Below, one piece after another: positions 19,242 to 49,811 of a stretch of DNA of 64,000 nt (its first letter is position 1; the number at the start of each line of letters is the position of its first letter). The DNA is taken from NCBI GenBank assembly GCA_019096065.1, contig JAGUCH010000009.1:2986001-3050000 (forward strand). The letters are read 5' to 3'. Under the pieces are notes generated by a model. It made no database searches and was not told the DNA's origin. It worked only from the letters and a program-made list of their open reading frames with translations. The position numbers and the translations under genes were made by a program. This stretch comes from Paracyclopina nana. Its lineage: Eukaryota; Arthropoda; Copepoda; Cyclopoida; Cyclopettidae.

Positions 19242-19707
19242 CACAGTGGATCAAAAAGCCGATTTTACGCGCATGAGAAATTACGTCAAATCGCAGATTT
19301 CCGATTTTAGCACCCATTTTCAGTTTCTAATTTGTATGACTTCTAGGCTATCTAAAGAGCACAAATTAATGTTTATTGACAGATAAAGATTCAAATTTGG
19401 TGAAGGAAACATAATTTTTGGACAAAAGTTGATTCTGGCGAATTCAGTAGAACAGCAACTTTGTACAATTTGAGCAAAAATTGAATCTCCCATAACTTTT
19501 GATTCCAAACGACTCCAATTGAGTGACCAAGTCAGGGAAGTCAAGCTTATAGCATAAATTGATAATCCACCAGAATTGGCTGCTCTTACTTGCTCTCCCG
19601 GGTGCCAGGATGGAATATTTTTAGCTTACCGCTAATAAGAAAGAGGTGCTACGTTCATTTCGCGACTTTTTTCCGTGCGCGTGAAATCGGCAAATAAACC
19701 CACTGTG
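19242..19707. mobile_element. Transib-like non-autonomous element, apparently complete, 466 bp
   Basis: Begins CACAGTGGATCAAAAAGCCG and ends CGGCAAATAAACCCACTGTG. The terminal repeats (~31 bp, imperfect) share CACAGTGG, GCCGATTT and ACGCGCA. GATTA occurs on both flanks (19236-19240 and 19708-19712), leaving one extra A before the left end. Known: Transib and RAG-like transposons use CACWATG/CACAGTG heptamer ends, like the recombination signal heptamer, and duplicate 5 bp. No transposase is encoded. A second copy, split by a 17-kb insertion, occupies 27665-45180 and carries a clean 5-bp CAGTG duplication. The superfamily call is inferred from ends and TSD only. Confidence 0.75.
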
Positions 19708-19733
19708 GATTAGTGATTTTTTCTTCTTATTTA

Positions 19734-19955
19734 GGCCCTGTTCACCTGCATTATTATCAGCAAAATAACGCGCGATATTATGATGAAATTTGCAAATATG
19801 TGGTATTTGTAAAATCATTTTTCTGATTTTGACTTCGGAATCGGTATATTGGTACCAAAAGCCATCCTACACCAATATAAAAATTCTCAGTTTCTCAGTA
19901 TTTCTCTCCAATATTTTGCCAAAATAACGGCCATAATAAGCAGGTGAACAGGCCC
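19734..19955. mobile_element. PIF/Harbinger-type MITE, copy B (222 bp, reverse orientation)
   Basis: Same family as copy A in the opposite orientation: ends GGCCCTGTTCACCTGC and GCAGGTGAACAGGCCC, flanked by TTA at 19731-19733 and 19956-19958. It sits only 26 bp from the Transib-like element, so two elements inserted nearly side by side. Confidence 0.9.
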
Positions 19956-20914: not shown

Positions 20915-21059
20915 GGCTTAGTCTCTTCTGGAGATTTCATAGTGACCAAGCCACGGTCATTATCGATTCTTATGTAGTTCCATCGCAACCTACTCAGTAC
21001 ATAAGAAAAGATAATGACCGTGGCTTGGTCACTATGAAATCTCCAGAAGAGACTAAGCC
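20915..21059. mobile_element. 145-bp near-perfect hairpin MITE, AAA TSD
   Basis: The two halves of ~50 bp are perfect reverse complements (outer ends GGCTTAGTCTCTTCTGG and CCAGAAGAGACTAAGCC), with a loop holding CATCGCAACCT. AAA flanks both sides (20912-20914 and 21060-21062). Two relatives of exactly the same length, with the same loop motif and the CGTGGCTTGGT core, lie inside the satellite array at 32812 and 33283. Non-coding. The 3-bp TSD suggests PIF/Harbinger, but AAA is not the usual TWA. Confidence 0.8.
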
Positions 21060-21062
21060 AAA

Positions 21063-24967: not shown

Positions 24968-27115
24968 GCTGGCCTTGAAAGGTGGAAAAAGGCCCAAAAA
25001 GCAGCCTTCACGTGGCACTGGCTCGGACAACTTTTGACACTACTCAATTCAGCTTTTAGGCCTTCGTTTAGCACAATCAATCAAGGCCTGGTTGCTTGCA
25101 TATAAATGCAGTTTTTATGTATACAACGTACGCGTGTACGTATATGGTTGCGGACACTGACTGAAACGCAGCAACGGCGCTTCGCCTCGCGTCGCCGTCG
25201 TTATACTCAAACGCGTCGACGTCGTCGTCGTTTGGCTCTCTCTCTGCAGCTATATTACACGCAGAAGCTCCCTTCCATGCCATGCTACATACAAAGCAAG
25301 CCCACCACGATTTTCAAGGGAGCCTCCTTCTCTCTCCCTTTATTTGCGTTCGTTCTTCGCAACCTTCAGCGCCACGCGCACTTTCTCAAGAGGGAGCCTT
25401 TTAAACCCTTTTTTATGGTATTACTGAAAATACCCTTGTTTTCAGAGCAAACAGAGATTAGATCTCTAAGATCGAGCCCAAAGCTGAGTGTGTCAGTTCT
25501 CAGAATTAGGCTTTTTTAGGCCTGGACGTTGTGGCTCGTTTTTATCCTGAAATATTTAATGCTCCGAAAATTGTGGAACTGTCTGTATGAAGATCAGAAA
25601 AATTGTCATTGTCCAATTTTCATTTTAACCTCTATGGTAAATAGCAAGAAATGGAATGCTAAGCGTGGAGCAATGGAGAAAATGCCAGGCATGAAATATG
25701 CACACAAAAGAAAGGCCTTGGGAAACTATTGCACATGTTCTCAAATTAGCTTGCAGAAATCCGCTAAAAGAATGCCTGGCACTTTGGAAAATGCTCAACA
25801 TTTGAAAATGGAGAAATGTCAGCTGCTGCTGCTGCTGGGGACTAAAAGACTTATGGCATGTGTAAGTGCAGCTTTCAAAACAAATTTCAACATCGTTAGT
25901 ACGTGCGTAGCTAAGGAGGGGAAAAAGCTCCCCTTTTTGCTCCAAATTGTAACCCAGGCAACCAACGCAAGCAACGCAGCAACGATTGCGAGGTCCCTTT
26001 AGTTAGAAAGTCTTCTTCTCTCTCTCTTCTGGTTTGAGCGCGCGCACGTGATGTCAGTGACGCCAGCTTTGGCTGCCACCTAGAAGAAAGTTGGAAACTT
26101 CCAGGGCTTTGGCACGCTGGGGAAAGGCCGAAAAATGCCTCGTGCTTTTACCCCCCTAAAATTCAATCTACGTCAAATTGTCAACAGAGATTTGTGCAAG
26201 ACTCATGAAAATTGCACTTTCACTTTTTTTCTAAATAATCATTACATACATAAAAGTCAAGAATGAGAAGATAAATATTTATAAAGAGGTTTTTTTGTTT
26301 CATTGATTTTTGGCCTGCTCTCGTTGCATTCATTTTATATGAATGTCGAGAAAACCCTTTTTTGCGTTTGACTTTCTTTCTTCTTTGTTGGCATCGCTCC
26401 CCTTTTTGTGGATTGTGTCTAAAACGGTTTTGAAACGGCTTACTGAAATCTGATGGCATCTAGTCGTTGTAGACGTATTTTTCGTAGCACAAATAGCCCC
26501 TTCTTGCTTTGATGAAAGAGCCTTTTGAGCGAGAAGTAGCAAGGAGCAATTTAGCCCAGGATTGCAGAAGAAAGCCAGCCCAAATGCGTCGTTGTATTTT
26601 TGGAACTACGCATCATTTATTTACTAGAGCTGGAAAGGAAAGGGGAAATTGGAATTGAAGTGGAAATTATGCACCCAATCAACAGCACACAAGATTACTT
26701 CCATACAGTATGGCTTCCCAAATGAAAGAGCCTGAATTATGGTGATTAATTCTTTATTAGCTCCTTTTCCACTGATTTATAGCATATCCAGACCTGATTG
26801 GGATTAGTAGAAGGCTGTAGATAAATCCTTCCTGCCACAACCACTCCTATAATACGGTCTTCACCTGCAAAGCCTTGGAGGAAAGTATTTTGAGGAAAAG
26901 CAACCTTTTCGTGTGAAAAACAAGCTCAAGTTGCCTTTCTTCAATATCACTTTGGCCTATTAATCATATTATCAAAACTATTTTTTATAATACGTATTTT
27001 TGCAGATGAACACCACGTGAAGATGAACCCTTTATTCTCGTTTATTCCTTCGGTAAATCCTCTGCCTTGATTGATTTTCTCGTAATTATCTGAGATTTTC
27101 CTGCAACTTCCTGAT
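24968..27115. other. Gene-free stretch with a CpG-rich patch
   Basis: Upstream of the Cys-rich gene. 25165-25235 is unusually rich in CG/CGTCG for this window (GCGTCGACGTCGTCGTCG). A plus-strand frame of 157 codons (25529-26002) has no domain, no signal and low-complexity composition; I treat it as chance. Nothing else is recognised. Confidence 0.4.
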
Positions 27116-27118
27116 TTA

Positions 27119-27340
27119 GGGCCTGTTCACCTGCTTATTATGACCGTTATTTTGGCAAAATATTGGAGAGAAATACTGAGAAACTGAGAATTTTATTTTT
27201 GGTGTAGGATGGCTTTTGGTACCAATATATCGATTCCGAAGTCAAAATCTGAAAAATGATTTTACAAATACCGGATTTTTGCAAATATCAGCATAATATC
27301 GCGCGTTATTTTGCTGATAATATTGCAGGTGAACAGGGCC
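27119..27340. mobile_element. PIF/Harbinger-type MITE, copy C (222 bp, TTA TSD)
   Basis: Ends GGGCCTGTTCACCTGC and GCAGGTGAACAGGGCC, flanked by TTA at 27116-27118 and 27341-27343. Same length and orientation as copy A; a few internal substitutions separate them. Confidence 0.9.
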
Positions 27341-27599
27341 TTAGCATGCTCTCCAAAATAGTATTCAAAGGCATTTTTCCTCCCGCGAGCGTTCATGGAT
27401 GCAATCATTTAAGGAGATGCAAGTTGGTGTGCTTTGATTGGTCATTGTAGGCCCACAAATCGATGATTCATCATTGGCTCTCGACTAAAGCAGCAAACGA
27501 GGGAGCCTCTGTTGCCACCAAGGGAGCCACATTGCAATTGTAAATAAATGAATTTTCTGGACTAAGAACCTGCTTTCATATAATTGATGTAATTACTAG

Positions 27600-27659: not shown

Positions 27660-27844
27660 CAGTGCACAGTGGATCAAAAAGCCGATTTTACGCGCATGAG
27701 AAATTACGTCAAATCGCAGATTTCCGATTTTAGGTAACACTCTCATGTTCAGCGCACAAAAATGCTCAAATTGACATAGATATCAAATAAAAAAACACAA
27801 AAAGTCTAAGCAGGGCACGTACAATCACAATTTTTCTTTCCCAA

Positions 27845-30108
27845 CCACCACCCATCACCACCCAAATATGAATTTCGTTTTGCCTCTTTTTCCCCAATCA
27901 CCACCCATCACCACCCAAACTGATTTTGGATTTGGTCTTTTTTTTCTGATCACCACCCATCACCACCCAAATATGAATTTCGTTTTGCCTCTTTTTTCTG
28001 ATCACCACCCATCACCACCCAAACTGATTTTGGATTTGGTCTTTTTTTTCTGATCACCACCCATCACCACCCAAATATGATTTCGGATTTGGTCTTTTTT
28101 TCTGATCACCACCCATCACCGCCCAAATATGAATTTCCTTTTCGCCTCTTTTTTCCCAATCACCACCCATCACCACCCAAATATGAATTTCGTTTTGCCT
28201 CTTTTTCCCCAATCACCACCCATCACCACCCAAACTGATTTTGGATTTGGTCTTTTTTTTCTGATCACCACCCATCACCACCCAAATATGAATTTCGTTT
28301 TGCCTCTTTTTTCTGATCACCACCCATCACCTCCCAAACTGATTTTGGATTTGGTCTTTTTTTTCTGATCACCACCCATCACCACCCAAATATGATTTCG
28401 GATTTGGTCTTTTTTTCTGATCACCACCCATCACCGCCCAAATATGAATTTCCTTTTCGCCTCTTTTTTCCCAATCACCACCCATCACCACCCAAATATG
28501 ATTTTGGATTTGGTCTTTTTTTCTGATCACCACCCAAACTGATTTTGGATTTGGTCTTTTTTTTCTGATCACCACCCATCACCACCCAAATATGATTTCG
28601 GATTTGGTCTTTTTTTCTGATCACCACCCATCACCGCCCAAATATGAATTTCCTTTTCGCCTCTTTTTTCCCAATCACCACCCATCACCACCCAAATATG
28701 ATTTTGGATTTGGTCTTTTTTTCTGATCACCACCCATCACCACCCAAACTGATTTTGGATTTGGTCTTTTTTTTCTGATCACCACCCATCACCACCCAAA
28801 TATGAATTTCGTTTTGCCTCTTTTTTCTGATCACCACCCATCACCACCCAAACTGATTTTGGATTTGGTCTTTTTTTTCTGATCACCACCCATCACCACC
28901 CAAATATGATTTCGGATTTGGTCTTTTTTTCTGATCACCACCCATCACCGCCCAAATATGAATTTCCTTTTCGCCTCTTTTTTCCCAATCACCACCCATC
29001 ACCACCCAAATATGATTTTGGATTTGGTCTTTTTTTCTGATCACCACCCATCACCACCCAAACTGATTTTGGATTTGGTCTTTTTTTTCTGATCACCACC
29101 CATCACCACCCAAATATGATTTCGGATTTGGTCTTTTTTTCTGATCACCACCCATCACCACCCAAACTGATTTTGGATTTGGTCTTTTTTTTCTGATCAC
29201 CACCCATCACCACCCAAATATGAATTTCGTTTTGCCTCTTTTTTCTGATCACCACCCATCACCACCCAAACTGATTTTGGATTTGGTCTTTTTTTTCTGA
29301 TCACCACCCATCACCACCCAAATATGATTTCGGATTTGGTCTTTTTTTCTGATCACCACCCATCACCGCCCAAATATGAATTTCCTTTTCGCCTCTTTTT
29401 TCCCAATCACCACCCATCACCACCCAAATATGATTTTGGATTTGGTCTTTTTTTCTGATCACCACCCATCACCACCCAAACTGATTTTGGATTTGGTCTT
29501 TTTTTTCTGATCACCACCCATCACCACCCAAATATGAATTTCGTTTTGCCTCTTTTTTCTGATCACCACCCATCACCACCCAAACTGATTTTGGATTTGG
29601 TCTTTTTTTTCTGATCACCACCCATCACCACCCAAATATGAATTTCGTTTTTGCCTCTTTTTTCCCAATCACCACCCATCACCACCCAAATATGAATTTC
29701 GTTTTGCCTCTTTTTTCCCAATCACCACCCATCACCACCCAAACTGATTTTGGATTTGGTCTTTTTTCTGATCACCACCCATCACCACCCAAATATGATT
29801 TTGGATTTGGTCTTTTTGTTCTGATCACCACCCATCACCACCCAAATTTGAATTTCGTTTTGCCTCTTTTTTCTGATCACCACCCATCACCACCCAAACT
29901 AATTTTGGATTTGGTCTTTTTTTTTCTGATCACCACCCATCACCACCCAAATATGAATTTCGTTTTTGCCTCTTTTTTCCCAATCACCACCCATCACCAC
30001 CCAAACTAATTTTGGATTTGGTCTTTTTTTTCTGATCACCACCCATCACCACCCAAATTTGAATTTCATTTTACCTCTTTTTTCCCTATCACCACCCATC
30101 ACCACCCA
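27845..30108. repeat. Left arm: ~52-bp tandem array
   Basis: About 44 units built on CACCACCCATCACCACCC followed by a variable part of four main kinds: AAACTGATTTTGGATTTGGTC, AAATATGATTTCGGATTTGG, AAATATGAATTTCGTTTTGC or AAATATGAATTTCCTTTTCG. Marker variants (GCCCAAATATG at 28121, 28436, 28636, 28950, 29368) recur at ~200-, ~314- and ~418-bp intervals, so units are grouped into higher-order blocks. Open frames across it (HHHPNMNF...) are a by-product of the repeat. Confidence 0.95.
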
Positions 30109-30230
30109 GACGATGCTAAAGTTAGCACTATGACAAATTCAAAATTCGTCAAAACATGGTGAAAAAATGCAAAACTTTGTTAAATGTTGTCAAAAATACA
30201 ATTTTGCTCAGGCAAATATATCTCTTCATC

Positions 30231-30361
30231 TACAAACTCCTTAAGGAATCGGAATGCAAAATTCCTTTGCGCCAAAGAGTTCTCAGTACATAAACTAGCT
30301 GCGTAGAGTTGTATGCATGGATTTGTCACAATGCATTCTTTAAGGAATGGTAGATGAACAG
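30231..30361. mobile_element. MITE with TGTTCATCTAC ends, copy inside the giant insertion
   Basis: ~131 bp, left end TCTTCATCTACAAACTCC, right end GGTAGATGAACAG, with inner TTAAGGAATCGGAATGC. It is the reverse orientation of the copy at 63254-63401 (shared CCTTAAGGAAT, TTCCTTTGCGC, GCAGCTAGTTTATG). Flanked by TATA-rich sequence; the exact TSD is uncertain. Confidence 0.75.
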
Positions 30362-31012
30362 TATATTAATCATGTACGCTACGCTAGTTTTGCTCCTTGA
30401 CCGAAAAGTTGTTGCTAAAAATATTCTAGTTTATGTCAAATTTTGCACTGGGAGACTAATGGACCTGGACTTCCCAAGATCCTAACAACTACCTATAACC
30501 AGAATGAGCACAACTTGCTAGCTCAAAGTCAGTTTTATTTAAGAACTCTTGAATTTTAAGTCAAAATGTCAGTTGCAGCTGTCAGTGTGAGTCAACTTGA
30601 CTCAAAATTTGAGGCAAAGTCTACCTTTTTTTGATTTTGAGCTAGCAAGAGCTAAAACTTGGGCATCACATTATACTACCAATTAATTGCTGAAAAAAAT
30701 TGAATTTCTTGACAAAAGTCAATTTTGAGTAAAAGTGTTGGTTGCAGCTGATAGTGTGAGTCAACTTGACTAAAAACTTGAGGCGAAGTGAAACTTCTGA
30801 CTCATTTTGAGTTCGCAAGAGTGAAAACATGCGCATCGCTAGATGCTATGTATTTATCTCGTAGTGCTGCTAGTAAACTTCTAAGAAAATACAAAATTGT
30901 GGATAAGGTCAATTTTGAGTCAAAATGTCTATAATGGCTGATAATTTGAGGCATTTGGACCCTAAATGTGAGGCAAAGTCAAGCTTTGACTCATTTTTGA
31001 CTATGAGAGAAA

Positions 31013-31424
31013 GGCCTGGATCAGCTGGTTATTTCACCGCAATTTTGAGCGCCGTAATTACGATGCAATTGTCAACATAACAGCGATCAGCTGGTAATTG
31101 TAATCCAATTTTTGCTATGTGCAAAAATTACTTCTTTAGCGGGTTTAAAGTAAAACTTTAAGACCAAAATATAAAAATGTGATCATTAGAGCATAAACCA
31201 TCAAGAACAGCCTCTGTTATGACAAATAAGGACAAAAAATAGGCCAACTTAAATTGCAAAGGTTTGGCTGACTTTACTCTTAAAGTTCCGCCGCTACTTT
31301 GCTCGCCGAAATTGCACTGCAATTATCTGTAGTAGCTGATCCACTTAAATTGCAGCGCAATTACAAACAGCAGCTGAAATTATAACCGAAATTGCGCTGC
31401 AATCAGGACCAGCTGATCCAGGCC
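31013..31424. mobile_element. 412-bp MITE in the satellite, AAA TSD, empty site known
   Basis: Ends GGCCTGGATCAGCTGGT and ACCAGCTGATCCAGGCC are perfect inverted repeats of 17 bp. Inside, AATTGCRSTGCAATT-like and CAGCTGRT motifs recur in both orientations. AAA flanks both sides (31010-31012 and 31425-31427). Uninterrupted satellite copies (for example near 32518, 35270 and 39677) read GAGAGAAATAAAAAC and so show the empty site. GGCC ends with a 3-bp duplication suggest PIF/Harbinger. Confidence 0.85.
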
Positions 31425-31510
31425 AAATAAAAACTTATGCATCCCGTAACGCTACTAATAAACTATTGAGAAAATGCAAAATTCTGGACTAGTCAATTTT
31501 GAGTCAAAAT

Positions 31511-32110
31511 TGAAAGGGGTTGAATGACTGGGGCCTCAGATGCCTAAATACGTATTCTGCACTCTGAGGCTGGATCGACTTCCCCTTGGGACGAGGGGCC
31601 TCTACCTCTCTAGTCTACCACTCTGGTCTCCTCGTGGACTGGCAAGTACGACAGTCCTGGTCGGCCTCTTCTTAAGCCCTTGTAGCCTCAAGGCTCTATA
31701 GCGTCTATGTACCTCCAGATCCGGAGACGAGACTCTTGAGAGGCGAGATATCCCACACCGTAGGATCACTACCGAATTGAGAGGCCTCTGGATGAACTGA
31801 GGCTTCAAGTCAGCGCTACGCGAACAACTCAGGTTGAAAGGCTGAGTTCTCGATGGAGTTTGTTCACTAAAAAACCACTGTTTTGTTGTTCAATAGGCTG
31901 CTTTTATTGCTATCTTAGACCCTCCAGGTCTCAAGTCTGCAATTACTAAGTACAGCTAAACTTAATTGGACATCGCGATATGGCGTCCCACAGGCGACTC
32001 CCGGATGATCCGGCTCGTTCTTTGCTCGGCGCCTTCCCTCGCTCTCGTCCTCTACGAAGCTGCCTGCGCGCTGCCTGCGCTCATCGGGCCCCACTATATG
32101 TCACGCTTCA
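31511..32110 (-). mobile_element. Solo LTR of an LTR retrotransposon (fossil)
   Basis: A 600-bp, relatively GC-rich block with TG...CA ends and a 4-bp target duplication AAAT (31507-31510 and 32111-32114). A minus-strand AATAAA and the end TGAAGCGTGACATATAGTGG suggest minus orientation. It interrupts a satellite monomer cleanly. No internal retrotransposon region is present, so it is a solo LTR left by recombination. A Gypsy-type source is likely but not proven. Younger than the satellite monomer it split. Confidence 0.75.
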
Positions 32111-32811
32111 AAATGTCAATAGTGGCTGATAATTTGAGGCATTTGGACCCTAAATGTGAGGCAAAGTCAAGCTTTGACTCATTTTTGACTATGCAAGAGC
32201 CAAAACTTGCGCATCGAGTAATGCTGCTAATAAACTACTTAGAAAATGCAAAATTCTGGACTAGTCAATTTTGAGTCAAAATGTCAGTAGTGGATGATAA
32301 TTTGAGGCATCTGGACCCTAAATGTGAGGCAAAGTCAAGCTTTGACTCATTTTTGATTATGTGAGAGCCAAAACTTATGCATCGCGTAACGCTGCTAATA
32401 AACTATTAAGAAATGCAAAATTCTGGACTAGTCAATTTTGAGTCAAAATGATAATTTGAGGCATCTGGACCCTAAATGTGAGGCAAAGTCAAGCTTTGAC
32501 TCATTTTTGACTATGAGAGAAATAAAAACTTATGCATCCCGTAACGCTACTAATAAACTATTGAGAAAATGCAAAATTCTGGACTAGTCAATTTTGAGTC
32601 AAAATGTCAGTAGTGGCTGATAATTTGAGGCATCTGGACCCTAAATGTGAGGTAAAGTCAAGATTTGACTCATTTTTGACTATGCAAGAGCCAAAACTTG
32701 TGCATCACGTAATGCTGCTAATAAACTACTAAGAAAATGCAAAATTCTCGACTAGTCAATTTTGAGTCAAAATGATAATTTGAGGCATTTTGACCCTAAA
32801 TGTGAGGCTCA

Positions 32812-32956
32812 GGCTCATTATCTTCCGCATCTTTGATCGTGGCTTGGTTGCGGTTGTTATCGGTTCTTATTTACTGACGAGGTTGCGATGTCAGTAAATA
32901 AGAAGCGATAACAACCGTAACCAAGTCACGATCAAAGACGCAGAAGATAATGAGCC
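32812..32956. mobile_element. 145-bp hairpin MITE in the satellite, copy 1
   Basis: Arms GGCTCATTATCTTCCGC and (from the right) GGCTCATTATCTTCTGC fold over a loop with AGGTTGCGATG. Relative of the 20915 element, same 145-bp length. The satellite empty site GTGAGGCAAAGTC shows that exactly 3 bp (TCA left, AAA right) were added, as for the other members with AAA duplications. Confidence 0.8.
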
Positions 32957-33282
32957 AAAGTCAAGCTTTGACCTATTTTTGACTATGCGAGAGCCAAAAC
33001 TTGCGCATCGCGTAATGCTGCTAATAAACTACTAAGAAAATGCAAAATTCTGGACTAGTCAATTTTGAGTCAAAATGTCAGTAGTGGCTGATAATTTGAG
33101 GCATCTGGACCCTAAATGTGAGGTAAAGTCAAGATTTGACTCATTTTTGACTATGCAAGAGCCAAAACTTGTGCATCACGTAATGCTGCTAATAAACTAC
33201 TAAGAAAATGCAAAATTCTCGACTAGTCAATTTTGAGTCAAAATGATAATTTGAGGCATTTTGACCCTAAATGTGAGGCTCA

Positions 33283-33427
33283 GGCTCATTATCTTCCGCA
33301 TCTTTGATCGTGGCTTGGTTGCGGTTGTTATCGGTTCTTATTTACTGACGAGGTTGCGATGTCAGTAAATAAGAAGCGATAACAACCGTAACCAAGTCAC
33401 GATCAAAGATGCGGAAGATAATGAGCC
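33283..33427. mobile_element. 145-bp hairpin MITE in the satellite, copy 2
   Basis: Nearly identical to copy 1 and exactly 471 bp downstream within the same satellite context, so it arose by duplication of a satellite block that already carried the element, not by a second insertion. Later copies of that block (near 35550 and 39970) lack it. Confidence 0.85.
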
Positions 33428-36400
33428 AAAGTCAAGCTTTGACTCATTTTTGATTATGTGAGAGCCAAAACTTATGCATCGCGTAATGCTGCTAATAAAC
33501 TACTAAGAAAATGCAAAATTCTGGACTAGTCAATTTTGAGTCAAAATGATAATTTGAGGCATTTGGACCCTAAATGTGAGGCAAAGTCAAGCTTTGACTC
33601 ATTTTTGATTATGTGAGAGCCAAAACTTATGCATCGCGTAATGCTGCTAATAAACTACTAAGAAAATGCAAAATTCTGGACTAGTCAATTTTGAGTCAAA
33701 ATGTAAGTAGTGGCTGATAATTTGAGGCATTTGGACCCTAAATGTGAGGCAAAGTCAAACTTTGACTCATTTTTGACTATGGAAGAGCCAAAACTTGCGC
33801 ATCGCGTAATGCTGCTAATAAACTACTAAGAAAATTCAAAATTCTGGACTAGTCAATTTTGAGTCAAAATGTCAGTAGTGGCTGATAATTTGAGGCATTT
33901 GGACCCTAAATGTGAGGCAAAGTCAAACTTTGACTCATTTTTGACTATGGAAGAGCCAAAACTTGCGCATCGCGTAATGCTGCTAATAAACTACTAAGAA
34001 AATGCAAAATTCTGGACTAGTCAATTTTGAGTCAAAATGTCAATAGTGGCTGATAATTTGAGGCATTTGGACCCTAAATGTGAGGCAAAGTCAAACTTTG
34101 ACTCATTTTTGACTATGGAAGAGCCAAAACTTGCGCATCGCGTAATGCTGCTAATAAACTACTAAGAAAATGCAAAATTCTGGACTAGTCAATTTTGAGT
34201 CAAAATGTCAATAGTGGCTGATAATTTGAGGCATTTGGACCCTAAATGTGAGGCAAAGTCAAGCTTTGACTCATTTTTGATTATGTGAGAGCCAAAACTT
34301 ATGCATCGCGTAATGCTGCTAATAAACTACTAAGAAAATGCAAAATTCTGGACTAGTCAATTTTGAGTCAAAATGTCAGTAGTGGATGATAATTTGAGGC
34401 ATTTGGACCCTAAATGTGAGGCAAAGTCAAGCTTTGACTCATTTTTGATTATGTGAGAGCCAAAACTTATGCATCGCGTAATGCTGCTAATAAACTACTA
34501 AGAAAATGCAAAATTCTGGACTAGTCAATTTTGAGTCAAAATGATAATCTGAGGCATTTGGACCCTAAATGTGAGGCAAAGTCAAGCTTTGACTTATTTT
34601 TGACTATGCGAGAGCCAAAACTTGCGCATCGCGTAATGCTGCTAATAAACTACTAAGAAAATGCAAAATTCTGGACTAGTCAATTTTGAGTCAAAATGTC
34701 AGTAGTGGATGATAATTTGAGGCATTTGGACCCTAAATGTGAGGCAAAGTCAAGCTTTGACTCATTTTTGATTATGTGAGAGCCAAAACTTATGCATCGC
34801 GTAATGCTGCTAATAAACTACTAAGAAAATGCAAAATTCTGGACTAGTCAATTTTGAGTCAAAATGATAATTTGAGGCATTTGGACCCTAAATGTGAGGC
34901 AAAGTCAAGCTTTGACTCATTTTTGATTATGTGAGAGCCAAAACTTATGCATCGCGTAATGCTGCTAATAAACTACTAAGAAAATGCAAAATTCTGGACT
35001 AGTCAATTTTGAGTCAAAATGTCAGTAGTGGCTGATAATTTGAGGCATTTGGACCCTAAATGTGAGGCAAAGTCAAACTTTGACTCATTTTTGACTATGG
35101 AAGAGCCAAAACTTGCGCATCGCGTAATGCTGCTAATAAACTACTAAGAAAATGCAAAATTCTGGACTAGTCAATTTTGAGTCAAAATGTCAATAGTGGA
35201 TGATAATTTGAGGCATTTGGACCCTAAATGTGAGGCAAAGTCAAGCTTTGACTCATTTTTGACTATGAGAGAAATAAAAACTTATGCATCCCGTAACGCT
35301 ACTAATAAACTATTGAGAAAATGCAAAATTCTGGACTAGTCAATTTTGAGTCAAAATGTCAGTAGTGGCTGATAATTTGAGGCATCTGGACCCTAAATGT
35401 GAGGTAAAGTCAAGATTTGACTCATTTTTGACTATGCAAGAGCCAAAACTTGTGCATCACGTAATGCTGCTAATAAACTACTAAGAAAATGCAAAATTCT
35501 CGACTAGTCAATTTTGAGTCAAAATGATAATTTGAGGCATTTTGACCCTAAATGTGAGGCAAAGTCAAGCTTTGACCTATTTTTGACTATGCGAGAGCCA
35601 AAACTTGCGCATCGCGTAATGCTGCTAATAAACTACTAAGAAAATGCAAAATTCTGGACTAGTCAATTTTGAGTCAAAATGTCAGTAGTGGCTGATAATT
35701 TGAGGCATTTGGACCCTAAATGTGAGGCAAAGTCAAACTTTGACTCATTTTTGACTATGGAAGAGCCAAAACTTGCGCATCGCGTAATGCTGCTAATAAA
35801 CTACTAAGAAAATTCAAAATTCTGGACTAGTCAATTTTGAGTCAAAATGTCAATAGTGGCTGATAATTTGAGGCATTTGGACCCTAAATGTGAGGCAAAG
35901 TCAAGCTTTGACTCAGTTTTGATTATGTGAGAGCCAAAACTTATGCATCGCGTAATGCTGCTAATAAACTACTAAGAAAATGCAAAATTCTGGACTAGTC
36001 AATTTTGAGTCAAAATGTCAGTAGTGGATGATAATTTGAGGCATTTGGACCCTAAATGTGAGGCAAAGTCAAGCTTTGACTCATTTTTGATTATGTGAGA
36101 GCCAAAACTTATGCATCGCGTAATGCTGCTAATAAACTACTAAGAAAATGCAAAATTCTGGACTAGTCAATTTTGAGTCAAAATGATAATCTGAGGCATT
36201 TGGACCCTAAATGTGAGGCAAAGTCAAGCTTTGACTTATTTTTGACTATGCGAGAGCCAAAACTTGCGCATCGCGTAATGCTGCTAATAAACTACTAAGA
36301 AAATGCAAAATTCTGGACTAGTCAATTTTGAGTCAAAATGTCAGTAGTGGATGATAATTTGAGGCATTTGGACCCTAAATGTGAGGCAAAGTCAAGCTTT

Positions 36401-39400
36401 GACTCATTTTTGATTATGTGAGAGCCAAAACTTATGCATCGCGTAATGCTGCTAATAAACTACTAAGAAAATGCAAAATTCTGGACTAGTCAATTTTGAG
36501 TCAAAATGATAATTTGAGGCATTTGGACCCTAAATGTGAGGCAAAGTCAAGCTTTGACTTATTTTTGACTATGCGAGAGCCAAAACTTGCGCATCGCGTA
36601 ATGCTGCTAATAAACTACTAAGAAAATGCAAAATTCTGGACTAGTCAATTTTGAGTCAAAATGTCAATAGTGGCTGATAATTTGAGGCATTTGGACCCTA
36701 AATGTGAGGCAAAGTCAAGCTTTGACTCATTTTTGATTATGTGAGAGCCAAAACTTATGCATCGCGTAATGCTGCTAATAAACTACTAAGAAAATGCAAA
36801 ATTCTGGACTAGTCAATTTTGAGTCAAAATGTCAGTAGTGGATGATAATTTGAGGCATTTGGACCCTAAATGTGAGGCAAAGTCAAGCTTTGACTCATTT
36901 TTGATTATGTGAGAGCCAAAACTTATGCATCGCGTACTGCTGCTAATAAACTACTAAGAAAATGCAAAATTCTGGACTAGTCAATTTTGAGTCAAAATGT
37001 CAATAGTGGCTGATAATTTGAGGCATTTGGACCCTAAATGTGAGGCAAAGTCAAGCTTTGACTCATTTTTGATTATGCGAGAGCCAAAACTTGCGCATCG
37101 CGTAATGCTGCTAATAAACTACTAAGAAAATGCAAAATTCTGGACTAGTCAATTTTGAGTCAAAATGTCAGTAGTGGCTGATAATTTGAGGCATTTGGAC
37201 CCTAAATGTGAGGCAAAGTCAAACTTTGACTCATTTTTGACTATGGAAGAGCCAAAACTTGCGCATCGCGTAATGCTGCTAATAAACTACTAAGAAAATT
37301 CAAAATTCTGGACTAGTCAATTTTGAGTCAAAATGTCAATAGTGGCTGATAATTTGAGGCATTTGGACCCTAAATGTGAGGCAAAGTCAAGCTTTGACTC
37401 AGTTTTGATTATGTGAGAGCCAAAACTTATGCATCGCGTAATGCTGCTAATAAACTACTAAGAAAATGCAAAATTCTGGACTAGTCAATTTTGAGTCAAA
37501 ATGTCAGTAGTGGATGATAATTTGAGGCATTTGGACCCTAAATGTGAGGCAAAGTCAAGCTTTGACTCATTTTTGATTATGTGAGAGCCAAAACTTATGC
37601 ATCGCGTAATGCTGCTAATAAACTACTAAGAAAATGCAAAATTCTGGACTAGTCAATTTTGAGTCAAAATGATAATCTGAGGCATTTGGACCCTAAATGT
37701 GAGGCAAAGTCAAGCTTTGACTTATTTTTGACTATGCGAGAGCCAAAACTTGCGCATCGCGTAATGCTGCTAATAAACTACTAAGAAAATGCAAAATTCT
37801 GGACTAGTCAATTTTGAGTCAAAATGTCAGTAGTGGATGATAATTTGAGGCATTTGGACCCTAAATGTGAGGCAAAGTCAAGCTTTGACTCATTTTTGAT
37901 TATGTGAGAGCCAAAACTTATGCATCGCGTAATGCTGCTAATAAACTACTAAGAAAATGCAAAATTCTGGACTAGTCAATTTTGAGTCAAAATGATAATT
38001 TGAGGCATTTGGACCCTAAATGTGAGGCAAAGTCAAGCTTTGACTTATTTTTGACTATGCGAGAGCCAAAACTTGCGCATCGCGTAATGCTGCTAATAAA
38101 CTACTAAGAAAATGCAAAATTCTGGACTAGTCAATTTTGAGTCAAAATGTCAATAGTGGCTGATAATTTGAGGCATTTGGACCCTAAATGTGAGGCAAAG
38201 TCAAGCTTTGACTCATTTTTGATTATGTGAGAGCCAAAACTTATGCATCGCGTAATGCTGCTAATAAACTACTAAGAAAATGCAAAATTCTGGACTAGTC
38301 AATTTTGAGTCAAAATGTCAGTAGTGGATGATAATTTGAGGCATTTGGACCCTAAATGTGAGGCAAAGTCAAGCTTTGACTCATTTTTGATTATGTGAGA
38401 GCCAAAACTTATGCATCGCGTACTGCTGCTAATAAACTACTAAGAAAATGCAAAATTCTGGACTAGTCAATTTTGAGTCAAAATGATAATTTGAGGCATT
38501 TGGACCCTAAATGTGAGGCAAAGTCAAGCTTTGACTCATTTTTGATTATGCGAGAGCCAAAACTTGCGCATCGCGTAATGCTGCTAATAAACTACTAAGA
38601 AAATGCAAAATTCTGGACTAGTCAATTTTGAGTCAAAATGTCAGTAGTGGATGATAATTTGAGGCATTTGGACCCTAAATGTGAGGCAAAGTCAAGCTTT
38701 GACTCATTTTTGATTATGTGAGAGCCAAAACTTATGCATCGCGTAATGCTGCTAATAAACTACTAAGAAAATGCAAAATTCTGGACTAGTCAATTTTGAG
38801 TCAAAATGATAATTTGAGGCATTTGGACCCTAAATGTGAGGCAAAGTCAAGCTTTGACTCATTTTTGATTATGTGAGAGCCAAAACTTATGCATCGCGTA
38901 ATGCTGCTAATAAACTACTAAGAAAATGCAAAATTCTGGACTAGTCAATTTTGAGTCAAAATGATAATTTGAGGCATTTGGACCCTAAATGTGAGGCAAA
39001 GTCAAGCTTTGACTCATTTTTGATTATGCGAGAGCCAAAACTTGCGCATCGCGTAATGCTGCTAATAAACTACTAAGAAAATGCAAAATTCTGGACTAGT
39101 CAATTTTGAGTCAAAATGTCAGTAGTGGATGATAATTTGAGGCATTTGGACCCTAAATGTGAGGCAAAGTCAAGCTTTGACTCATTTTTGATTATGTGAG
39201 AGCCAAAACTTATGCATCGCGTAATGCTGCTAATAAACTACTAAGAAAATGCAAAATTCTGGACTAGTCAATTTTGAGTCAAAATGATAATTTGAGGCAT
39301 TTGGACCCTAAATGTGAGGCAAAGTCAAGCTTTGACTCATTTTTGATTATGTGAGAGCCAAAACTTATGCATCGCGTAATGCTGCTAATAAACTACTAAG

Positions 39401-42400
39401 AAAATGCAAAATTCTGGACTAGTCAATTTTGAGTCAAAATGATAATTTGAGGCATTTGGACCCTAAATGTGAGGCAAAGTCAAGCTTTGACTTATTTTTG
39501 ACTATGCGAGAGCCAAAACTTGCGCATCGCGTAATGCTGCTAATAAACTACTAAGAAAATGCAAAATTCTGGACTAGTCAATTTTGAGTCAAAATGTCAA
39601 TAGTGGATGATAATTTGAGGCATTTGGACCCTAAATGTGAGGCAAAGTCAAGCTTTGACTCATTTTTGACTATGAGAGAAATAAAAACTTATGCATCCCG
39701 TAACGCTACTAATAAACTATTGAGAAAATGCAAAATTCTGGACTAGTCAATTTTGAGTCAAAATGTCAGTAGTGGCTGATAATTTGAGGCATCTGGACCC
39801 TAAATGTGAGGTAAAGTCAAGATTTGACTCATTTTTGACTATGCAAGAGCCAAAACTTGTGCATCACGTAATGCTGCTAATAAACTACTAAGAAAATGCA
39901 AAATTCTCGACTAGTCAATTTTGAGTCAAAATGATAATTTGAGGCATTTTGACCCTAAATGTGAGGCAAAGTCAAGCTTTGACCTATTTTTGACTATGCG
40001 AGAGCCAAAACTTGCGCATCGCGTAATGCTGCTAATAAACTACTAAGAAAATGCAAAATTCTGGACTAGTCAATTTTGAGTCAAAATGTCAGTAGTGGCT
40101 GATAATTTGAGGCATTTGGACCCTAAATGTGAGGCAAAGTCAAACTTTGACTCATTTTTGACTATGGAAGAGCCAAAACTTGCGCATCGCGTAATGCTGC
40201 TAATAAACTACTAAGAAAATTCAAAATTCTGGACTAGTCAATTTTGAGTCAAAATGTCAATAGTGGCTGATAATTTGAGGCATTTGGACCCTAAATGTGA
40301 GGCAAAGTCAAGCTTTGACTCAGTTTTGATTATGTGAGAGCCAAAACTTATGCATCGCGTAATGCTGCTAATAAACTACTAAGAAAATGCAAAATTCTGG
40401 ACTAGTCAATTTTGAGTCAAAATGTCAGTAGTGGATGATAATTTGAGGCATTTGGACCCTAAATGTGAGGCAAAGTCAAGCTTTGACTCATTTTTGATTA
40501 TGTGAGAGCCAAAACTTATGCATCGCGTAATGCTGCTAATAAACTACTAAGAAAATGCAAAATTCTGGACTAGTCAATTTTGAGTCAAAATGATAATCTG
40601 AGGCATTTGGACCCTAAATGTGAGGCAAAGTCAAGCTTTGACTTATTTTTGACTATGCGAGAGCCAAAACTTGCGCATCGCGTAATGCTGCTAATAAACT
40701 ACTAAGAAAATGCAAAATTCTGGACTAGTCAATTTTGAGTCAAAATGTCAGTAGTGGATGATAATTTGAGGCATTTGGACCCTAAATGTGAGGCAAAGTC
40801 AAGCTTTGACTCATTTTTGATTATGTGAGAGCCAAAACTTATGCATCGCGTAATGCTGCTAATAAACTACTAAGAAAATGCAAAATTCTGGACTAGTCAA
40901 TTTTGAGTCAAAATGATAATTTGAGGCATTTGGACCCTAAATGTGAGGCAAAGTCAAGCTTTGACTTATTTTTGACTATGCGAGAGCCAAAACTTGCGCA
41001 TCGCGTAATGCTGCTAATAAACTACTAAGAAAATGCAAAATTCTGGACTAGTCAATTTTGAGTCAAAATGTCAATAGTGGCTGATAATTTGAGGCATTTG
41101 GACCCTAAATGTGAGGCAAAGTCAAGCTTTGACTCATTTTTGATTATGTGAGAGCCAAAACTTATGCATCGCGTAATGCTGCTAATAAACTACTAAGAAA
41201 ATGCAAAATTCTGGACTAGTCAATTTTGAGTCAAAATGTCAGTAGTGGATGATAATTTGAGGCATTTGGACCCTAAATGTGAGGCAAAGTCAAGCTTTGA
41301 CTCATTTTTGATTATGTGAGAGCCAAAACTTATGCATCGCGTACTGCTGCTAATAAACTACTAAGAAAATGCAAAATTCTGGACTAGTCAATTTTGAGTC
41401 AAAATGATAATTTGAGGCATTTGGACCCTAAATGTGAGGCAAAGTCAAGCTTTGACTCATTTTTGATTATGCGAGAGCCAAAACTTGCGCATCGCGTAAT
41501 GCTGCTAATAAACTACTAAGAAAATGCAAAATTCTGGACTAGTCAATTTTGAGTCAAAATGTCAGTAGTGGATGATAATTTGAGGCATTTGGACCCTAAA
41601 TGTGAGGCGAAGTCAAGCTTTGACTCATTTTTTGATTATGTGAGAGCCAAAACTTATGCATCGCGTAATGCTGCTAATAAACTACTAAGAAAATGCAAAA
41701 TTCTGGACTAGTCAATTTTGAGTCAAAATGATAATTTGAGGCATTTGGACCCTAAATGTGAGGCAAAGTCAAGCTTTGACTCATTTTTGATTATGTGAGA
41801 GCCAAAACTTATGCATCGCGTAATGCTGCTAATAAACTACTAAGAAAATGCAAAATTCTGGACTAGTCAATTTTGAGTCAAAATGATAATTTGAGGCATT
41901 TGGACCCTAAATGTGAGGCAAAGTCAAGCTTTGACTCATTTTTGATTATGCGAGAGCCAAAACTTGCGCATCGCGTAATGCTGCTAATAAACTACTAAGA
42001 AAATGCAAAATTCTGGACTAGTCAATTTTGAGTCAAAATGTCAGTAGTGGATGATAATTTGAGGCATTTGGACCCTAAATGTGAGGCAAAGTCAAGCTTT
42101 GACTCATTTTTGATTATGTGAGAGCCAAAACTTATGCATCGCGTAATGCTGCTAATAAACTACTAAGAAAATGCAAAATTCTGGACTAGTCAATTTTGAG
42201 TCAAAATGATAATTTGAGGCATTTGGACCCTAAATGTGAGGCAAAGTCAAGCTTTGACTCATTTTTGATTATGTGAGAGCCAAAACTTATGCATCGCGTA
42301 ATGCTGCTAATAAACTACTAAGAAAATGCAAAATTCTGGACTAGTCAATTTTGAGTCAAAATGATAATTTGAGGCATTTGGACCCTAAATGTGAGGCAAA

Positions 42401-43170
42401 GTCAAGCTTTGACTTATTTTTGACTATGCGAGAGCCAAAACTTGCGCATCGCGTAATGCTGCTAATAAACTACTAAGAAAATGCAAAATTCTGGACTAGT
42501 CAATTTTGAGTCAAAATGTCAATAGTGGCTGATAATTTGAGGCATTTGGACCCTAAATGTGAGGCAAAGTCAAGCTTTGACTCATTTTTGATTATGTGAG
42601 AGCCAAAACTTATGCATCGCGTAATGCTGCTAATAAACTACTAAGAAAATGCAAAATTCTGGACTAGTCAATTTTGAGTCAAAATGTCAGTAGTGGATGA
42701 TAATTTGAGGCATTTGGACCCTAAATGTGAGGCAAAGTCAAGCTTTGACTCATTTTTGATTATGTGAGAGCCAAAACTTATGCATCGCGTAATGCTGCTA
42801 ATAAACTACTAAGAAAATGCAAAATTCTGGACTAGACTTTGACTTATTTTTGACTATGCGAGAGCCAAAACTTACGCATCGCTTAACGCTACTAATAAAC
42901 TATTAAGAAAATGCAAAATTCTTTGACTTATTTTTGACTATGCAATAGCCAAAACTTGCGCATCGCGTAATGCTTTACTTTTGCAAACTTTCAAACTCAA
43001 ATTGAGTCAAAAATCTCAAAATTTGAATCATCTTGACTTAAACTATCAGCTGCAACTCATATATGTATTTTATATAATTATCACAATTGACAGCATTAAA
43101 CTATGGCTGGCAAAATCTCAAAGCTGAGCGCTCAGTGCTATGTCAGCTTGTAGTTGTTCAATTCTAAATT

Positions 43171-44775
43171 GATGGGTGGTGATCAGAAAAAAAGACCAAA
43201 TCCAAAATCATATTTGGGTGGTGATGGGTGGTGATTGGGAAAAAAGAGGCAAAACAAAATTCAAATTTGGGTGGTGATGGGTGGTGATCAGAAAAAAAAG
43301 ACCAAATCCAAAATCACATTTGGGTGGTGATGGGTGGTGATTGGGAAAAAAGAGGCAAAACAAAATTCAAATTTGGGTGGTGATGGGTGGTGATCAGAAA
43401 AAAAAGACCAAATCCAAAATCATATTTGGGTGGTGATGGGTGGTGATTGGGAAAAAAGAGGCAAAACGAAATTCAAATTTGGGTGGTGATTGGGAAAAAA
43501 GAGGCAAAACGAAATTCAAATTTGGGTGGTGATGGGTGGTGATCAGAAAAAAAAGACCAAATCCAAAATCATTTTGGGTGGTGATGGGTGGTGATCAGAA
43601 AAAAAGACCAAATCCGAAATCATATTTGGGTGGTGATGGGTGGTGATCAGAAAAAAAAGACCAAATCCAAAATCATATTTGGGTGGTGATGGGTGGTGAT
43701 TGGGAAAAAAGAGGCAAAACGAAATTCATATTTGGGTGGTGATGGGTGGTGATTGGGAAAAAAGAGGCAAAAACGAAATTCATATTTGGGTGGTGATGGG
43801 TGGTGATCAGAAAAAAAAGACCAAATCCAAAATCAGTTTGGGTGGTGATGGGTGGTGATCAGAAAAAAAGACCAAATCCAAAATCATATTTGGGTGGTGA
43901 TGGGTGGTGATTGGGAAAAAAGAGGCGAAAAGGAAATTCATATTTGGGCGGTGATGGGTGGTGATCAGAAAAAAAGACCAAATCCGAAATCATATTTGGG
44001 TGGTGATGGGTGGTGATCAGAAAAAAAAGACCAAATCCAAAATCAGTTTGGGTGGTGATGGGTGGTGATCAGAAAAAAAGACCAAATCCAAAATCATATT
44101 TGGGTGGTGATGGGTGGTGATCAGAAAAAAGAGGCAAAACGAAATTCATATTTGGGTGGTGATGGGTGGTGATCAGAAAAAAAAGACCAAATCCAAAATC
44201 AGTTTGGGTGGTGATCAGAAAAAAAGACCAAATCCAAAATCATATTTGGGTGGTGATGGGTGGTGATTGGGAAAAAAGAGGCGAAAAGGAAATTCATATT
44301 TGGGCGGTGATGGGTGGTGATCAGAAAAAAAGACCAAATCCGAAATCATATTTGGGTGGTGATGGGTGGTGATCAGAAAAAAAAGACCAAATCCAAAATC
44401 AGTTTGGGTGGTGATGGGTGGTGATCAGAAAAAAAGACCAAATCCAAAATCATATTTGGGTGGTGATGGGTGGTGATCAGAAAAAAGAGGCAAAACGAAA
44501 TTCATATTTGGGTGGTGATGGGTGGTGATCAGAAAAAAAAGACCAAATCCAAAATCAGTTTGGGTGGTGATCAGAAAAAAAGACCAAATCCAAAATCATA
44601 TTTGGGTGGTGATGGGTGGTGATTGGGAAAAAAGAGGCGAAAAGGAAATTCATATTTGGGCGGTGATGGGTGGTGATCAGAAAAAAAGACCAAATCCGAA
44701 ATCATATTTGGGTGGTGATGGGTGGTGATCAGAAAAAAAAGACCAAATCCAAAATCAGTTTGGGTGGTTATGGGT
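43171..44775. repeat. Right arm: ~52-bp tandem array, inverted relative to left arm
   Basis: About 31 units, the reverse complement of the left array (GGGTGGTGATGGGTGGTGAT with the same variant parts). Blocks of at least 207 bp are identical to the left arm: 44166-44372 and 44522-44728 each encode the same 68-codon frame as the minus strand of 28369-28575. The GGGCGG marker recurs every 356 bp (43946, 44302, 44658). Confidence 0.95.
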
Positions 44776-45185
44776 CGATTTTAGCACCCATTTTCAGTTT
44801 CTAATTTGTATGACTTCTAGGCTATCTAAAGAGCACAAATTAATGTTAATTGAGAGATAAAGATTCAAATTTGGTGAAGGAAGCATAATTTTTGGGCAAA
44901 AGTTGATTTTGGCGAATTCAGTAGAACAGCAACTTTGCACAATTTGAGAAAAAATTGAATCGCCCATAACTTTTGATTCCAAACGACTCCAATTGAGTGA
45001 CCAAGTCAGGGAAGTCAAGCTAATAGCATAAATTGATAATCCACCAGAATTGGCTGCTCTTACTTGCTCTCCCGGGTGCCAGGATGCAATATTTTTAGCT
45101 TACAGCCAATAAGAAAAGGTGCTACGTTGATTTCGCGACTTTTTTCCGTGCGCGTGAAATCGGCAAATAAACCCACTGTGCAGTG

Positions 45186-45315: not shown

Positions 45316-46488
45316 TTATGCTTTGTGCATGGAGCAAAAGAGTGAGGTGAATCCTCTCTCTTGGGTGATTGCCTGGTAATTTTGTTGGAACTTCCAGCAG
45401 TTGTAATTGGTGTTGCCTGCCCTGAAATAAGGATCCCAAGTGACAGCATGGCACATCGAATCTCCTGAGCAATCGAGAGCACATTCATGCAACGAGTTAA
45501 CCCTGGCTTGGCTGTAGTGGCCCCACAATCGACTATTTACATTGGGCTCGTGACAGCCCATCAGTGCAAACGGGGATAAACCTGTGAAAATAACCATGAA
45601 AATCCAAGTGAAGTTCAAATGTAAAATTGCCCCATGATAAGTCACTTTTGTTGGCAAAATCAATTAGAGCTCTCTTGTTTATAACAAATATCATTATTAT
45701 TGTTGCGTGCAGCTTTAGAGAGGATTCATGCATGATTGCATGTTTTTTCACTGTACGCACAAAAACTATTATTGTTGGCTGGACCTCTTAAGGGCCACTC
45801 ATTGACACATTTACTCAGAGCATTAAAAAATCTCGTTAAATGTGTACGACGACACAATTTGAAGCATGAATGAAAGAGAAAAAACGAGAGCATTCGTCCA
45901 TTGCAGTTGTATTGTTTACACGTGGGAACAGCAGTTTTTTCTCCACTCTGTATTTAACAAGAAATATGATGCTCAGTTCAACAAGCCCCAGGGTTGCAAA
46001 TAACATGTTGATTATTGTTGTTGTTGGCGTTGTGGTAGAAGAAGCCTTGTTGTTGCTGCTGCTGATCACCCGAAAAAAATCTTCCCAATAAAAGATTACC
46101 TGCTGATGAGCCTCCATTAATGTTGATATTAACGGCACTCGAGCCAGGATTGAAAACCTGAAATAACACCAAAGCTTTCACCTCATTACGAGAGATTAAC
46201 TATTTTCCCTGGTTGATTCATTCACACTCAAATCCCCATTCTCCCCTCAAGCTCACAATAAACTTCCATTTAGCTTTCAGAATAGGGACAATTACCTGAT
46301 TGAGTTGACGCTTTGTCCTCAAATCAGAGGCTGAACTTTCATCAAGTCTGCAACGGAAAAAAAATGTTTGATCGAGCTGTTTTTCACAAAATATTTTGAG
46401 CTTTGAAAACTTACTGAGGATATGCATTCGAAAATGCAAGAAATAGAGCCAAAATGATGGTGCCAAATCCACTTGAAAAGTTCCTCAT
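45316..46488 (-). CDS. Secreted PAN/apple-like domain protein, 149 aa
   Basis: Exons 46488-46415, 46347-46296, 46157-46100 and 45581-45316 join with phases 2, 0 and 1; the 450 coding bases close in frame. Residues 1-22 are a signal peptide (MRNFSSGFGTIILALFLAFS). A basic RTKRQ near residue 38 could be a furin-type cleavage site. Residues ~71-146 form a six-cysteine module: MGCHEP, LHECALDC, SMCHAVTWDP, NYNCWKF and SLFCS. The ECALDC...C.A..W......NCW spacing resembles PAN/apple domains, which bind proteins or sugars outside cells. Family call inferred from this pattern. If intron 3 is retained, the frame continues into a Gln/Asn-rich tail ending VICNPGAC (stop at 45978). A broken copy of the last exon lies just downstream. 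Confidence 0.8.
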
Positions 46489-48007: not shown

Positions 48008-49811
48008 TTAATTAAATAACTCTTGCTGGTAGACTAGCAAGTACTCGGTGAATAAATTAATGGCGCCCACTGAGTACATGGACTCTGTGATTTCGCGTGG
48101 CCTTGCCAAATTCGGGCCAAATACCAGCGCCAAGTTCTTCTCGTTCATCTTGTTCAAGCAACTCCTGTCACTCACCTACAGACAAACAAGCAGATTAAAG
48201 ACAGGAAAATCTCAAGTGAAAGCAGTTGCATACCAGTGACAAGAATTCGACCAGGTGTTGAAGGACTGCATAGTTTTGGTGTGGCAGTTGCTCCAGAATG
48301 GCCTTGATTGCAGACACACGATCCTCTTTGGCCACACTCTCAATGTTGACAATTTGGTTGAACAGGTCGAAAGTGAGCAAAGGCTCCTCGAGCTCTTTGA
48401 GGAAAGTTTTCAGTATCACTGCAGCTATGTGAACATCTCCCTGGCTGAAAACGATTCTCTCGCCATTATTGATTTTCGCCATCAACTCCCTGATTTGAGA
48501 GGCGTTTCCGGATTTGCGGAAAATGCCTTCTGTCTCGAGGTTGTCAGGCTTGGAGAGAAAGTCCATGCAAAGGTTCATGATTGGCGGGATGAGCTGATCG
48601 TTGTTATTCATCCGGATCCATTCCAGGGAGGCACCAAATTGCTGTGTGGGCACTTTGGATTCTTGGAAGCTGCTGGCATCGGTTGTTAATGCACCAGAGG
48701 GCTTATAACGAGCCACTATCTTGCGATCATGCCTGCAATGACGTAACACCTTATTACCCAATTCAGCATCGTATTAAGCAGAAATCATTTACTCAATGAC
48801 AGCCTTTGGAATGGGGATTTGCTCGAGGGCCATGGATTGCGCCAGCTCATGCAAATAGTTGACATATTGGACTTTTCGTCCGAATTTGACACTGATGATG
48901 GGTCTGAAGAAGTTCCACACGATCCGGATGAAACTGGTGGGATGCACGAGAAAGAGAGTCTTCAAATTTTTCTTGTACCGCCTGTCCAGGGCCTTGTAGG
49001 CCTCCCAAAGCCACTTGAGTGGTGGCTTGTTTTTGGATGTCAATCCGTGGTGGAAGTACACCAGGGAATAATCCATGTCCACATAAGCGTCCAGGGTGAA
49101 CATCAAGTACCGCAGAAACCTGGATATCAATAACGTTTTGTAAAAATCCATGGCAAGCACACCAATGATAATAACAGTACCTGGGGTAATCAAAGGTTTT
49201 GTTGGATGGAAGTCGACATGCCGAAATGACGATGATTTTGCGACCAGCTGCATCATCACCAACCACTTCAACGATGCCATGCCTGGCAATGTCGATGAAA
49301 TCCTCGTCCTCAATGGAAGTCCCAGTCAAGGTCAAATTTCTGGCACTGTCCTCAGAGAGCCTTCGGTCTGCGATTTCTTTGGCGAGAGCTTGCTCAAAAT
49401 CCTCCTCAATGGTGCCATCTGACATGGGTGACTCGATGTAATCCGCAGGGGAGCCATTTCCAAGGCGATCCACTTCAGGCAGCTCAAAATCTGCAATAAC
49501 ACTACTAAGCAAGTGCATGATTTTGAAGCATAATTACACACCATCATTTTCAGGATGTTTTTGCTGCAGGAGATCCGAGTCGTCAAACTCCAGATTTGGC
49601 TCGTAGTCATGGAAATCTGACAGCGAAGGGTATGGATCTTCACAATCTGCGTTGTAAGTAGCTGCAAAGTAGAAGTGAAAAAAAAGGATCAGCGAGAATT
49701 TTGGTGATCCATCAATGGCGATGTGGGAATATAACCTAAATTGATTGCAGCATTACCAGCAAAGAAAGTCTTGGTTGGAGCAGCCAACAGAAAAGAAGTC
49801 TGCGCAGACAT
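48008..49811 (-). CDS. ARHGAP1: Rho GTPase-activating protein 1 (p50RhoGAP/Cdc42GAP), 492 aa
   Basis: Six exons: 49811-49757, 49661-49542, 49490-49181, 49119-48793, 48732-48234 and 48175-48008 (phases 1, 1, 2, 2, 0), 1479 coding bases. An acidic N-terminal region (~1-120) precedes a CRAL-TRIO/BCH domain (~125-270: GRKIIVISACRLPS, LVYFHHGLTSKNKP, LFLVHPTSFIRIVW, VQYVNYLHEL) and a RhoGAP domain (~300-485). The catalytic arginine finger is R343 in ETEGIFRKSGN; AAVILKTFLKELEEPLLTF and NLALVFGPNLARP are classic. Known: it speeds GTP hydrolysis by Cdc42/Rho at endosomes and the cell cortex. Human ARHGAP1 is 439 residues. Exon 1 has a second in-phase donor 21 bp downstream (49736), giving 499 residues. 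Confidence 0.93.

Follow-up and report, generated by a model that had tools for sequence, protein, structure and literature searches.

A 17-kb Foldback-Like Insertion with a Satellite Core, Nested in a Transib-Like Element of the Copepod Paracyclopina nana

Introduction

Tetris of Drosophila virilis is an apparently non-autonomous foldback that is flanked by 8- to 10-bp duplications and whose arm repeats have expanded into satellite arrays with as many as 66 copies (PMC4079207). Tm1 was described as having composite arms with unlike end motifs, and duplications of 8 to 10 bp, mostly 9 bp, were present in 45 of its 53 complete elements (PMC3169594). The origin of satellite DNA is an open question, and the clean boundary of the insertion reported here lets one ask whether such elements carry satellite seeds. 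The window, i.e., the whole stretch of DNA analyzed, comprised 64,000 nucleotides of P. nana contig JAGUCH010000009.1 (assembly GCA_019096065.1; positions 2,986,001 to 3,050,000, forward strand), and all coordinates below refer to it.

Results

Outer element and its unsplit copy

The outer element and its second copy had the following components:

27660..27664, +, CAGTG, left target duplication of the outer element
27665-45180, outer Transib-like element, split by the inner unit, with CAGTG on each flank
27665..27733, +, left part of the outer element; terminal inverted repeat starting CACAGTGG; 69/69 bases identical to 19242-19310
44785..45180, +, right part of the outer element; ending CCACTGTG
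45181..45185, +, CAGTG, right target duplication of the outer element
19242..19707, +, second copy without the inner unit (paralogous empty site), 466 bp

The unsplit copy at 19242-19707 was found by self-comparison of the window, and its flanks differed from those of the split copy. Both copies had RSS-heptamer-like termini with CACAGTGG at each end, and the inverted ends were alignable over 39 bp from this motif onward; the consensus of the RSS heptamer is CACAGTG. The split copy was bracketed by the 5-bp target duplication CAGTG/CAGTG, found at 27660-27664 and 45181-45185 just as the original prediction had it, and the unsplit copy had GATTA on each side with one extra A at the left junction. 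A count by eye over the alignment of the two copies gave 13 substitutions and one gap, 14 differences in 466 columns, and the right alignment (44776-45180 versus 19302-19707) gave 96.6% identity over 406 columns. One 101-aa frame per copy was scanned against Pfam with no match, and the exact element pattern had 0 matches in viral_contigs. As read from its ends and duplication length, the outer element would be a non-autonomous 466-bp Transib-like element.

The original prediction also had a host exon resuming on both sides of this element. The joined flanks aligned to the PAN-like exon at 45316-45663 with a score of 30 (maximum of 200 shuffles, 18) and a shifted reading frame, and the right flank alone scored 25 (shuffle maximum 17), so that the left flank contributed only 5 points. 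By itself, the left flank scored 21 (shuffle maximum 20) elsewhere, namely at an exon-like sequence near 27.4-27.5 kb that lies apart from this exon and may represent a further exon copy. The intact PAN-like exon matched PAN_1 at E 0.0018, short of Pfam's cut-off. The exon claim thus held only in part: the "host exon" was a decayed duplicate of the PAN-like exon, with weak support on its left side.

Boundaries of the inner insertion

Comparison with the empty paralogue delimited the inner insertion:

27725..27733, +, CGATTTTAG, 9-bp duplication to the left of the insertion
27734..44775, unstranded, foldback-like inner insertion, 17,042 bp
44776..44784, +, CGATTTTAG, 9-bp duplication to the right of the insertion

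The left and right alignments to the unsplit copy overlapped by exactly 9 bp (19302-19310), and these were CGATTTTAG, placing the insertion at 27734-44775. This 9-mer occurred singly in the 466-bp copy and twice in the split copy, once on each side of the break, and the duplication proposed around the inner insertion was thereby confirmed. In a free search of windows of 61 and 36 bp, a shared 9-mer arose at a chance rate of 0.009 (20,000 random pairs); with the paralogue the chance was far lower, since the repeat fell exactly on the break, and a chance origin was rejected. The empty paralogue in the window, to which the original prediction made no reference, removed the main doubts, namely a chance 9-mer and an assembly join, and two nested insertions were present, each with its own duplication. 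The predicted "dated" mobile boundary was exact and put the events in order, but it gave no absolute date.

Arms, cap, and spacers of the inner insertion

The non-satellite parts of the inner unit were as follows:

27734..27836, +, left cap, 103 bp; unmatched elsewhere in the window and lacking a counterpart at the right tip
27837..30108, +, left arm, 52-bp array, 43 cut units
30109..30550, +, left spacer; contains a MITE-like repeat at 30221-30368 (86% to 63249-63400)
43170..44775, -, right arm, inverted 52-bp array, 30 cut units; extends to the tip

The 52-bp arrays and the satellite (32127-42835) were located by Tandem Repeats Finder, and the arm units were cut at the same motif in both arms. 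The 43 units of the left arm fell into 17 types and the 30 units of the right arm into 15; nine types were letter-for-letter common to both arms, covering 34/43 left and 22/30 right units. Read from outside to inside, the two arms had a similar unit order as far as a pair of types that both contain; beyond it they were largely different. The longest exact inverted match between the arms was 309 bp. Such likeness of the outer parts with divergence of the inner parts would fit sequence exchange between the arms.

The inner unit had long inverted tandem-repeat arms and a 9-bp duplication, within the 8- to 10-bp range of foldbacks, but matching terminal sequences were not found at its tips: local alignment of the end 110 bp gave a best match of only 7 bp, and the right end fell within a 52-bp unit. 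The prediction of a foldback therefore stood in its arms and duplication and not in its tips, and the unit looks like a non-autonomous foldback. No Pfam match at E 0.1 was obtained for the five inner ORFs of at least 90 aa, so no transposase was seen in the unit. The two array-side spacers showed no homology (score 12; shuffle mean 11.7, maximum 18), self-comparison revealed no second copy of the unit in the window, tRNA and Rfam scans found nothing, and the exact 52-bp unit pattern had 0 matches in viral_contigs.

Two smaller foldback-like structures were identified elsewhere in the window:

10737-11714, inverted tandem arrays of 15-bp units; 8-bp direct repeat GCTAGAAA outside
58429-59452, inverted tandem arrays of 16-bp units; 8-bp direct repeat TATTTTAT outside

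The chance of the flanking 8-bp repeat, as estimated from 20,000 random window pairs, was 0.024 for GCTAGAAA and 0.017 for TATTTTAT. Foldback-like elements may thus form a whole population in this genome.

Satellite core and later insertions

The satellite and the insertions into its monomers were arranged as follows:

30551..31510, +, left-edge satellite monomers, 72%, 74%, and 92% to the consensus; the third split by the MITE at 31013-31424
31013..31424, unstranded, MITE in a monomer, 412 bp; GGCCTGGATC ends; AAA duplicated
31511..32110, unstranded, solo-LTR-like insertion, 600 bp; TG...CA; AAAT duplicated
32111..42835, +, core satellite; higher-order blocks, chiefly of 168- and 155-bp monomers
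32808..32955, unstranded, hairpin insertion 1, in a monomer, 148 bp
33279..33426, unstranded, hairpin insertion 2, at the same place in a second monomer, 148 bp
42836..42974, +, right-edge pair of direct monomers, both truncated
42960..43060, -, vestige of the satellite in inverted orientation, next to the right arm; nhmmer E 7.9e-5

All the inner contents originally predicted could thus be located (inverted 52-bp arrays, satellite core, MITE, duplicated hairpins, and the solo LTR as a solo-LTR-like piece). A 17-base anchor, present 67 times, divided the satellite into 66 units of 25 types, 34 of the units being 168 bp and 21 being 155 bp. Exact repeats of 1,412, 1,614, and 1,898 bp were present, and the core was a kilobase-size head-to-tail array with higher-order blocks, as is satellite DNA. 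The exact satellite pattern had 0 matches in viral_contigs.

The monomer alignment comprised 22 distinct monomers, one of them joined around the MITE; excluded were the two with hairpins, the monomer preceding each (of a type present elsewhere in the satellite), the monomer with the LTR-like insert, and the last monomer. Identity to the consensus was 72% and 74% for two left-edge monomers, 92% for the third, and 93-99% for the other 19, and the two-monomer stretch at the left edge was 68% alike to its neighbour. The inner insertion is necessarily younger than the element it split, so that the 3% divergence between the outer copies served as its yardstick; against this 3%, the far greater divergence of the two edge monomers (72-74% identity to the consensus) indicated that their duplication probably predated the insertion. 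Conversion between the outer copies could make them look younger, which would weaken this argument. The exact blocks speak for late amplification, with array length and near-identity of blocks depending on the assembly. Probably, the insertion brought a short satellite array that was amplified afterwards.

The MITE, the solo-LTR-like piece, and the hairpins were all recognized as insertions by comparison with unfilled monomers. The two hairpin monomers differed at 8/303 positions, two of these within the hairpin, and no target duplication was resolved around the hairpins; their position at the same place in two monomers suggests that the hairpin was copied together with its monomer.

Inverted vestige beside the right arm

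The vestige (43060-42960) was detected with an nhmmer profile at an in-window E of 7.9e-5, a value carrying a large composition correction, and the next reverse-strand match was at 0.17. Three further comparisons agreed: (i) its local alignment with the left-edge stretch scored 36 (200 shuffles, maximum 30); (ii) a trimmed vestige piece scored 34 against the same stretch (shuffle maximum 24); and (iii) the trimmed spacer gave 11.8 bits with the profile, where only 26/500 shuffles scored at all (maximum 2.8). The vestige was undetected with one younger monomer as query (18 versus a shuffle maximum of 22), and its spacer gave no signal in direct orientation (21 versus 24).

An inverted vestige beside the right arm hints that the founder was present in both arms. 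One possible reading, put forward tentatively and held somewhat less probable than its negation, is that an inner domain of the foldback's two arms gave rise to the satellite: the left copy would have grown into the 10.7-kb array, the right copy would survive as the vestige at 42960-43060, and a carried seed would have landed and grown into a new higher-order satellite. If this were true, a foldback carried the seed of a new satellite into a gene region.

Discussion

Proposed history and its alternatives

A Transib-like insertion, then a foldback insertion bringing arms and a few monomers, and then amplification of the core is considered a likely history as a whole. A 466-bp non-autonomous Transib-like element would have inserted into the decayed PAN-like exon duplicate; this outer insertion was shown by the 5-bp duplication, the RSS-like ends, and the second copy elsewhere, and the exon was shown in part. 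A 17,042-bp foldback-type non-autonomous element would then have entered the outer element; this second insertion was shown by the 9-bp duplication against the empty paralogue, and it presumably used a transposase of Mutator/foldback type supplied in trans. On arrival, as divergence suggests, the inverted arms of the foldback would have contained 52-bp arrays and its middle a few satellite monomers or more. Unequal exchange or copying would afterwards have expanded the middle array into higher-order blocks, and the outer parts of the arms may have been kept alike via arm-arm exchange. The MITE, the solo-LTR-like piece, and the hairpin entered monomers, and the hairpin would then have been copied with its monomer.

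Four alternatives were weighed against this history. A satellite array amplified to large size before the foldback moved, so that a whole higher-order satellite jumped at once, is unlikely: the edge monomers do appear older than the insertion, but central blocks identical over up to 1,898 bp fit a later amplification, without being decisive. Rather improbable, too, is a capture without any transposon, in which a satellite-bearing fragment (e.g., extrachromosomal) was taken up by the small element where a double-strand break had left staggered ends, with fill-in accounting for the 9-bp duplication. The unlike inner tips and the right end lying inside a 52-bp unit would suit such a capture, but the inverted arms stood in mirror order at both ends, the 9-bp duplication matched the foldback habit, two smaller, similarly built elements lay in the window, and unlike end motifs were also described in the foldback Tm1 (PMC3169594).

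An assembly join placing an unlinked satellite set between two element halves is very improbable. Assemblers can go wrong over exact blocks of 1.4-1.9 kb, but a false join would not leave a perfect 9-bp duplication where an otherwise continuous element is broken. The array length may still be wrong. A single foldback with CACAGTG ends, its arrays and satellite original to the Transib-like element, would account for the symmetrical nesting of ends and arms but was rejected as scarcely credible, because the unsplit 466-bp copy at 19242-19707 in the window was continuous across the site and had one CGATTTTAG versus two at the break of the split copy.

The preferred history of seeding followed by amplification is testable at the same site in other individuals or sister species, given the exact boundary, the readable order of events, and a satellite unlike the arm repeat.

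Comparison with known systems

By analogy, the present case appears to work like Tetris and Tm1, and it differs in size, in its two unlike tandem repeats, and in its empty paralogue. Xstir and miDNA4 of Xenopus are smaller elements than the present inner unit. These tandem-repeat MITEs are similar in that internal tandem repeats of a non-autonomous element serve as a satellite source, but the review covering them describes no long inverted arrays of the kind seen in the inner unit, as far as its account of them goes (PMC12628747). The outer element resembles Transib/RAG-like transposons in its RSS-heptamer-like end and 5-bp duplication, and it differs from those described in PMC7204232 in being only 466 bp and lacking a transposase.

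Tm1, a Mutator/Foldback element of root-knot nematodes, shares with the inner unit composite arms with short tandem units and 8- to 10-bp duplications; the Tm1 account gives 1,080 and 2,593 bp for two elements and 13- to 15-bp units, with some elements encoding a putative transposase, and within its description of these elements there is no satellite core (PMC3169594). Tetris, with the TIR-220 satellite of D. virilis, is similar in being apparently non-autonomous and in having long inverted tandem-repeat arms, 8- to 10-bp duplications, and kilobase arrays within the element (PMC4079207). The original prediction had regarded a satellite with so clean a mobile boundary as rarely seen; the idea of foldbacks generating satellites had already been published in 2014 with Tetris (PMC4079207). 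As described there, the Tetris satellite is the arm repeat itself (about 220 bp), whereas here the arm repeat is 52 bp and the core satellite 168/155 bp, and their sequences are unlike; relative to that description, the empty paralogue in the same window is a feature of the present insertion (PMC4079207).

Directly upstream of the unsplit copy of the outer element (the non-autonomous Transib-like element), 18867-18891 displayed a 76% match over 25 bp to the inverted end of this element and was possibly a relic of that end. A repeat of about 232 bp was present in three copies (17890-18121, 19730-19961, and 27111-27341), which were 93-95% alike with one of the three inverted, and its inverted ends contained CTGTTCACCTGC.

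A long hairpin at 20892-21082 had ~70% similarity to the satellite hairpins (insertions in satellite monomers) at 32808 and 33279. Two structures of foldback-like build harbored (i) inverted 15-bp arrays with GCTAGAAA on the flanks and two tips resembling each other (GG.T.TACTGGTTAAAGGC) at 10737-11714 and (ii) inverted 16-bp arrays with TATTTTAT on the flanks at 58429-59452.

Host gene exons containing CRAL-TRIO and RhoGAP domains (Pfam) lay at 48195-49325 on the (-) strand.
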